Below are positions 4,995-5,938 of a stretch of 32,168 bases of DNA, one piece after another. Numbering within the stretch: the stretch's first letter is position 1; the number at the start of each line of letters is the position of its first letter. The DNA is from Actinomycetota bacterium (GTDB lineage: Bacteria > Actinomycetota > Thermoleophilia > Gaiellales > F1-60-MAGs149): contig CANJXE010000009.1 in NCBI GenBank assembly GCA_947478745.1, positions 1-32,168 on the forward strand. The letters are read 5' to 3'. The notes under the pieces are model-generated. The model was not told the DNA's origin and did not search any database. It was given only the letters and a program-made list of their open reading frames with translations. The position numbers and the translations under genes are program-made.

Positions 4995-5246
4995 CTACTC
5001 GCAGTCGCAGTCGTCGCAGATGCGACGGAGCTCGGCGCGCAGCGCGTCGGGGCACGGCTCGTCGCACGCCTTGCGCATGACGCTGCGCACGCCGACCTCG
5101 AGGCCGTAGCACTTGACGCAGCACGGGCAGACGGCCAGATGCTGATCGACGATCGCGACCTGCTCGGCCGGGAGCGTGCGGTCGACGTACTCCTGCACGC
5201 ACCGCTGCGCGTGCAGGCACTGCTCGGAGCGGACGTGCGCGCTCAT
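4995..5246 (-). CDS. rsrA-like: Zinc-binding anti-sigma factor, RsrA-like (ZAS), unusually Cys-rich
   Basis: 'DQHLAVCPCC' fits HxxxCxxC; 83 aa; start overlaps the sigma factor stop by 4 bp. Confidence 0.88.
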   Translation of the reverse strand: MSAHVRSEQCLHAQRCVQEYVDRTLPAEQVAIVDQHLAVCPCCVKCYGLEVGVRSVMRKACDEPCPDALRAELRRICDDCDCE

Positions 5247-5812
5247 GCGGTCTCTCCCCCGGCGTGATCGGCGAGGGCCTTCTTGAGCACGCGGCGACCA
5301 CGATGCAGGCGGCTCATGACGGTGCCGACGGGAATCTCAAGGACGTCCGCGGCCTCCTGATACGAGAGGTCGCCGAGGTCGACGAGCACGACGACCTCGC
5401 GGAAGGGCAGCGAGAGCTGACCGAGGGCCTCGAGGACGGGTCCGGGCGAGAGACGCTCGACGAGGCGATCGACGTCGGCGACCGTGGGGCCACCGAGACG
5501 GTCGTAGAGGTAGTAGTCATCGGCCTCGAGCCCGAGCTGCTCGGGCTGGCGCTGCTGCTTGCGGGCGTTGTCGATGGCGAGGTTGTGGACGATGCGGAGC
5601 AGCCAGGCGCGCAGGTTCGTGCCCGGCGTGTACTGCTTCCACGAGCGGAAGGCGCGCGTGTACGCCTCCTGCATCAGATCCTCAGCGGCCTGGGGATCGC
5701 GCGTCAGGCGACGGGCGACACGCCAGACGTCGTCGGCGAGCGCCAGCGCCTGCTCGTCGAAGACGAGGCGCGCGGGATCGGTGACGGGGGCTTCGGCGGT
5801 CTCGTCGGCCAC
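5243..5812 (-). CDS. sigR-like: ECF RNA polymerase sigma factor, SigR-like (short isoform from GTG 5812; possible extended isoform from ATG 5878)
   Basis: Region 2 'AEDLMQEAYTRAFRSWKQYTPGTNLRAWLLRIVHNLAIDNARKQ', region 4 'LSLPFREVVVLVDLGDLSYQEAADVLEIPVGTVMSRLHRGRRVLK'; paired with RsrA-like gene. Confidence 0.93.
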   Translation of the reverse strand: MADETAEAPVTDPARLVFDEQALALADDVWRVARRLTRDPQAAEDLMQEAYTRAFRSWKQYTPGTNLRAWLLRIVHNLAIDNARKQQRQPEQLGLEADDYYLYDRLGGPTVADVDRLVERLSPGPVLEALGQLSLPFREVVVLVDLGDLSYQEAADVLEIPVGTVMSRLHRGRRVLKKALADHAGGETA

Positions 5813-5818
5813 GGTCCG

Positions 5819-5824
5819 AGCGTA
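5819..5824 (-). promoter_or_regulatory. Putative -10 hexamer TACGCT for the sigma gene (leaderless short form)
   Basis: Minus strand TACGCT-cggacc-GTG(5812): 6 nt to start codon. Confidence 0.55.
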
Positions 5825-5887
5825 CCACCCGCGCGAGGCTCGGCTCGACGGACGGGGAGGGGTGGCGGCGGCCTGCATGTAGCGGAG

Positions 5888-5913
5888 AACGCGCCCGGGG
5901 ACTACGGCATTCC
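5888..5913 (-). promoter_or_regulatory. Putative SigR-type autoregulatory promoter GGAAT-N18-GTT
   Basis: Minus strand GGAAT (5913-5909), 18-nt spacer, GTT (5890-5888), then 9 nt to in-frame ATG at 5878. Confidence 0.7.
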
Positions 5914-5938
5914 GCCCATCTCGGTGATACTGCAGCCA

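Follow-up and report, generated by a model that had tools for sequence, protein, structure and literature searches.

A SigR-RsrA-type locus of a freshwater Gaiellales bacterium with a predicted compact, leaderless two-promoter arrangement

Genes and elements of the locus

The window analyzed here, a stretch of 32,168 nucleotides in its entirety, comes from a bacterium of the order Gaiellales whose relatives of the same genus are metagenome assemblies from lakes and other freshwater. It carries a gene for an ECF sigma factor, a small anti-sigma factor gene behind it, and ctaA on the other side (Table 1). The 189-aa sigma factor contains both sigma-70 region 2 and region 4. Its top NCBIfam match is TIGR02947 (SigH_actino, 3.5e-43), with 147.6 bits against a cut-off of 251.55, which places it at the family level only, and its top PDB match is Mycobacterium tuberculosis SigH (5zx2, 1.1e-31). 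The 83-aa product of the neighboring gene matches TIGR03988 (2e-10, 40.6 bits, short of the cut-off of 62.5) and the structure of RsrA (PDB 5frf, 7e-4). An HX3CX2C motif can be read directly from its sequence as HLAVCPCC, and its Cys10 aligns with a cysteine that lies close to the N-terminus of the RsrA chain in 5frf. Both proteins score under the curated cut-offs, which is to be expected of divergent members of their families, and that is what we take them to be.

Table 1. Positions of genes, promoter elements, and start codons discussed in the text
Feature	Position	Strand	Basis or remark
Zinc anti-sigma factor resembling RsrA (83 aa); gene overlaps the stop codon of the sigma gene	4995..5246	-	TIGR03988, PDB 5frf, motif
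ECF sigma factor of the SigR/SigH type, 189 aa; short isoform starting at GTG 5812	5243..5812	-	Profile and structure matches
Extended -10 TGG-TACGCT of p1 (TGGTACGCT)	5819..5827	-	TANNNT conservation, codon constraint
N-terminal extension of 22 codons (MQAAATPPRPSSRASRGWYART), sharing the reading frame of the sigma gene	5813..5878	-	Whole-codon length variation
Start codon (ATG) of the predicted extended isoform, 9 nt past GTT, at the predicted p2 +1	5876..5878	-	Conserved in-frame start
-10 element (GTT) of p2, after a spacer of exactly 18 nt	5888..5890	-	Sequence and orthologs
-35 GGAAT of the SigR-type autoregulatory promoter p2 (predicted)	5909..5913	-	Sequence and orthologs
Divergent ctaA (heme A synthase, PF02628)	Start 5939		GGAAT of p2 about 25 nt away

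Clear orthologs of the sigma factor are almost confined to its own order; a search of the class (299 genomes, threshold 1e-25) found four weak ones elsewhere. The arrangement with ctaA recurs in 11 of 12 loci of the genus. A GATACT lies at 5926-5931, 7 nt 5' of the ctaA ATG, and its -35 zone would fall inside p2; given this overlap, the ctaA promoter and p2 may be mutually exclusive.

Two candidate promoters upstream of the sigma gene

Read along the minus strand, the region opens with GGAAT (5913-5909), followed by an 18-nt spacer (GCCGTAGTCCCCGGGCGC), GTT (5890-5888), a further 9 nt (CTCCGCTAC), and ATG 5878. The initial annotation, made from the letters of this DNA, had given the same order, and every one of its coordinates proved exact on direct reading. 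It had also noticed by eye no other such site in the window, and our search agreed, finding GGAAT-N17..19-GTT once. Against an expectation of 0.28, with at least one match in 22 of 100 shuffles, a single match is about what chance would give, so it is conservation, not the count in the window, that carries the case for p2.

That conservation is extensive. Comparison with relatives, with loss of the site as the outcome to look for, had been suggested along with the annotation; the motif GGAA[TC]-N17-19-GTT was present upstream of the sigma gene in 88 of 90 Gaiellales orthologs, with the spacer exactly 18 nt in 84 of them, and in all 15 loci of the window's own family. Of the two loci without p2, one (L083) has no match and the other (L092) has a match at -226 only, outside the distance limit used. 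The preference for this spacing extends to whole genomes: exact-spacing counts in the window's own genome are 18 for N18, 6 for N17, 7 for N19, and 3 for N20, and in one relative 11 of 14 GGAAT..CGTT matches have exactly N18. These enrichment figures derive from pattern searches; a "reversed pattern" control was dropped in favor of exact-spacing counts because TAAGG contains a stop-like word that is rare in GC-rich DNA. If the motif, being short and degenerate, merely happened to stand next to an open frame in a GC-rich genome, that would be in keeping with how readily shuffled windows yield it, and the frame here is indeed open well beyond the motif. Such an accident would not explain a near-fixed N18 in 88 of 90 orthologs or the recurrence of the same motif before redox genes in relatives. 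We regard chance as ruled out by the conservation, with a probability close to nil.

The position of p2 also allows its transcription start to be predicted. In Corynebacterium glutamicum, the last base (T) of GGAAT lies at -31 (PMC10012870). With the T at -31 and a spacer of 18 nt, the tenth nucleotide past GTT would be +1; this is the A of ATG 5878, and by this analogy the first nucleotide of the p2 transcript is predicted to be the first nucleotide of a start codon.

The second candidate promoter, p1, lies within the stretch between the two start codons. TACGCT (5824-5819) is followed by 6 nt (CGGACC) and then GTG 5812, a spacing that the initial annotation had reported and that holds; it had missed the TGG at 5827-5825, which makes the element an extended -10 (TGN-TANNNT). 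One count finds TANNNT 6 to 8 nt ahead of an in-frame start in 79 of 88 loci, another in 80 of 90, and TGN precedes it in 63 of those 80. M. tuberculosis has many promoters of the TANNNT type and many leaderless mRNAs (PMC3898074).

Since the p1 element also translates, as W-Y-A/P-R, its conservation might belong to a protein rather than to a promoter. ATG 5878 would then be the sole start, TACGCT would be no promoter, and the gene would encode a single, longer sigma factor in which WYAR is a conserved motif, as the occurrence of WY[AP]R in all 15 family loci would lead one to expect. The codons and the wider distribution argue otherwise. Throughout the family, the Ala/Pro codon in the element is invariably GCT or CCT, which are rare in the same genes (GCT in 9 of 379 Ala codons, CCT in 8 of 127 Pro codons); an invariant rare codon indicates that the constraint acts on the DNA. 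TANNNT at a spacing of 6 to 8 nt is moreover found in other families too, and in other frames. A single long protein therefore seems to us very improbable.

An upstream start codon and its distribution in Gaiellales

ATG 5878 and GTG 5812 are 66 nt apart in the same frame, which bears out the earlier claim that the upstream ATG would add 22 residues. We rejected the open frame in itself as evidence for an extension, since hundreds of codons are open upstream regardless (a 503-aa ORF from 6754, and 621 aa from stop to stop). The behavior of the start codon among relatives is more informative. An in-frame ATG or GTG stands at GTT+9, +11, or +13 in 15 of 15 family loci and at +8 to +13 in 19 of 19 loci of the clade that encloses the family, and where the upstream ATG is replaced, it is by GTG only. 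Within the family, GTT and the short start are 72, 63, 75, 64, 50, and 59 nt apart, distances that cover all residues modulo 3, and the matching offsets of the upstream start are 9, 9, 9, 13, 11, and 11, so that the frame is retained every time. The upstream start thus shifts with promoter spacing, and the frame is kept: disruption of the frame, the second thing to be looked for in relatives, occurred in none of the 15 family loci in spite of their changes in spacing. Starts at +11 and +13 would leave a leader of 2 to 4 nt.

The extension itself differs in length among relatives, always by whole codons, and its peptide is little conserved. In a codon-position test for coding of the extension, third positions are favored only slightly, with 26 of 60 changes in subgroups A4, B, and C together (p=0.068); the value of p=0.004 for the three-species subset A3 alone belongs to a subset picked after the data were seen. 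In two sub-clades, the extension has Cys and Pro near its N-terminus (VEACCP, MECPTL), and a Streptomyces-like SigR' (MGSTICPSR) likewise has Cys and Pro near its own.

Beyond the family and its clade, the upstream start is not universal, and to this extent its conservation stops short of the order. The 88 loci with p2 divide into 43 with an in-frame start, 41 lacking any start codon at that position, and 4 in which it is out of frame or closed off from the gene. By genus, 14 of the 36 sampled have the in-frame start and 22 do not (19 with none or with no p2, and 3 out of frame or closed). When genus majority states are compared, 14 in frame at +8 to +13 stand against 3 out of frame or closed (p=5e-5 against 1/3), a test that includes four genera (g18, g19, g29, and g30) whose in-frame codon lies only 3 or 4 codons before the short start; such 3- to 4-codon extensions arise in part because the GTG belongs to the TAGTGT -10 itself. 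Placed on the protein tree, the presence of an in-frame start requires 7 changes. The extended form would therefore appear to be clade-wide in the window's family and in family f3, to occur also in genus g36, and to be patchy elsewhere.

Since 22 of 36 genera are without the in-frame start, the long form is evidently not needed for the circuit in general. This leads to the most serious alternative, that p2 is truly autoregulatory but its mRNA is translated from GTG 5812, the upstream ATG being incidental and the short protein the only product. The weak conservation of the extension peptide is in keeping with it, as is the absence of the start from those genera. An incidental codon would hardly be retained in frame at +8 to +13 in 19 of 19 clade loci, however, with an offset that moves to hold the frame and with ATG giving way to GTG alone. 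We consider this alternative unlikely, and favor the reading in which the upstream start is used: an in-frame start is available to the p2 transcript in all 15 family loci, and its use is predicted.

Predicted regulon, proposed switch, and relation to known systems

In related genomes, sites of the same kind precede genes for thioredoxin reductase (trxB), thioredoxin (trxA), glutaredoxin, Fe-S assembly, and Lon (lon has the upstream motif in G007 and G009). Further genes behind GGAAT-N18-GTT sites encode ThiF-rhodanese, MBL-rhodanese, DUF4395, glyoxalase, and DEAD helicase proteins. This set resembles the Streptomyces SigR regulon as described (PMC5472188), and that the sites constitute a SigR regulon in these bacteria is a prediction only. 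The gene starts lie at +9 from GTT for glutaredoxin and DUF4395 and at +11 for glyoxalase; the +9 starts suggest that this sigma factor usually gives rise to leaderless messages in these bacteria. In several species, an rpoD-type sigma gene also has an upstream GGAAT-N18-GTT, and a group 1/2 sigma factor may perhaps be raised by SigR as well.

The locus thus shows the components of a SigR/SigH-RsrA system: a SigH/SigR-family ECF sigma factor, an adjoining zinc anti-sigma factor with HX3CX2C and a trigger cysteine, a predicted GGAAT-N18-GTT autoregulatory promoter, and a redox and proteolysis regulon predicted from motifs. The SigR-like identity proposed in the initial annotation is supported by the RsrA-like neighbor, by the SigH structure match, and by the redox genes downstream of other sites. 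Taken as a whole, we judge the locus likely to be the sigR-rsrA of a freshwater Gaiellales bacterium.

How such a locus might operate can be outlined from the arrangement of its elements. Transcription from p1, which is probably always on, would give an mRNA beginning at GTG 5812 and the short sigma factor, which would be held by the RsrA-like anti-sigma factor. Thiol stress would free the sigma factor to read its own p2, so that p2 would be switched on by the sigma factor itself. The p2 mRNA would begin at or very near ATG 5878 and, translated as a leaderless message, would yield the same protein with 22 additional N-terminal residues. Because the internal GTG would normally be a leaderless start, an in-frame start at the 5' end probably is what lets the p2 message be translated, and the extension would follow from it.

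The elements, their conservation, the keeping of the frame, and the regulon-like set of sites are observed. As the best explanation of these observations overall, a compact, leaderless version of the SigR/SigR' arrangement, which the initial annotation had proposed, has our clear, if not complete, confidence. It is possible, though we hold this further proposal only tentatively and think it rather doubtful, that both sigR promoters are leaderless and the stress promoter can be translated only with its own in-frame start at +1. The extension would then be, in the first place, a consequence of leaderless translation, gained or lost several times in Gaiellales and nearly always in whole codons where present, and only later would it have come to serve as an unstable timer.

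The two-promoter, two-isoform logic of SigR would be extended by these results from Streptomyces to a distant actinobacterial class, and in its Gaiellales form the coding change would follow directly from the position of the transcription start. The order also offers a natural comparison between lineages that share these promoters and this sigma factor but differ in whether a start codon stands where p2 transcription is predicted to begin. This comparison lets one ask whether selection favors the extended form for being unstable or whether the extension is simply what leaderless translation costs.

Among known systems, SigR/SigR'-RsrA of Streptomyces coelicolor is similar in that a zinc anti-sigma gene follows the sigma gene, a downstream p1 serves the short form, and an upstream, SigR-dependent p2 serves the N-terminally extended form (PMC4921905, PMC5472188), an order of promoters that is here predicted from sequence. 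A GGAAT-N18-GTT-type promoter and redox and proteolysis genes in the regulon are likewise shared with S. coelicolor SigR (PMC4921905, PMC5472188), here as predictions from motifs. The differences lie in the upstream start and what it adds. Streptomyces SigR' starts from an ATG within a leadered p2 transcript and has an extension of 55 to 58 residues that is recognized by Clp proteases (PMC4921905, PMC5472188), whereas the extension in the window's family has 13 to 22 residues and its start coincides with the 5' end predicted for the mRNA rather than lying well inside it. In the Streptomyces-like genomes that we obtained, with mycobacteria-like ones, by a phylum search with RsrA, the ATG of the conserved N-terminus lies about 48 to 60 nt after GTT in most and 88 nt in one. 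The short form starts from GTC in Streptomyces, compared to a GTG 6 nt after an extended -10 here. Instability of the long form has been shown in Streptomyces; a less stable long form in Gaiellales is suggested by analogy only.

SigH-RshA of M. tuberculosis provides the closest solved structure (5zx2) and shares a SigH-type upstream autoregulatory promoter with a second promoter downstream (PMC4921905). Among the mycobacteria-like genomes sampled, those in which an upstream motif was found show GGAAC, unlike the GGAAT here, and no start codon conserved at a fixed offset from GTT was seen. M. tuberculosis sigE is likewise an ECF sigma gene with one leaderless promoter and an isoform that depends on the promoter (PMC10027907), but SigH drives its stress promoter P3, and the isoforms made from this promoter are shorter (PMC10027907). 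No work on Gaiellales SigR turned up in the collection of papers searched. In sum, the two-promoter SigR logic is known from Streptomyces, whereas its occurrence in a distant lineage, in compact and leaderless form, appears to be new.
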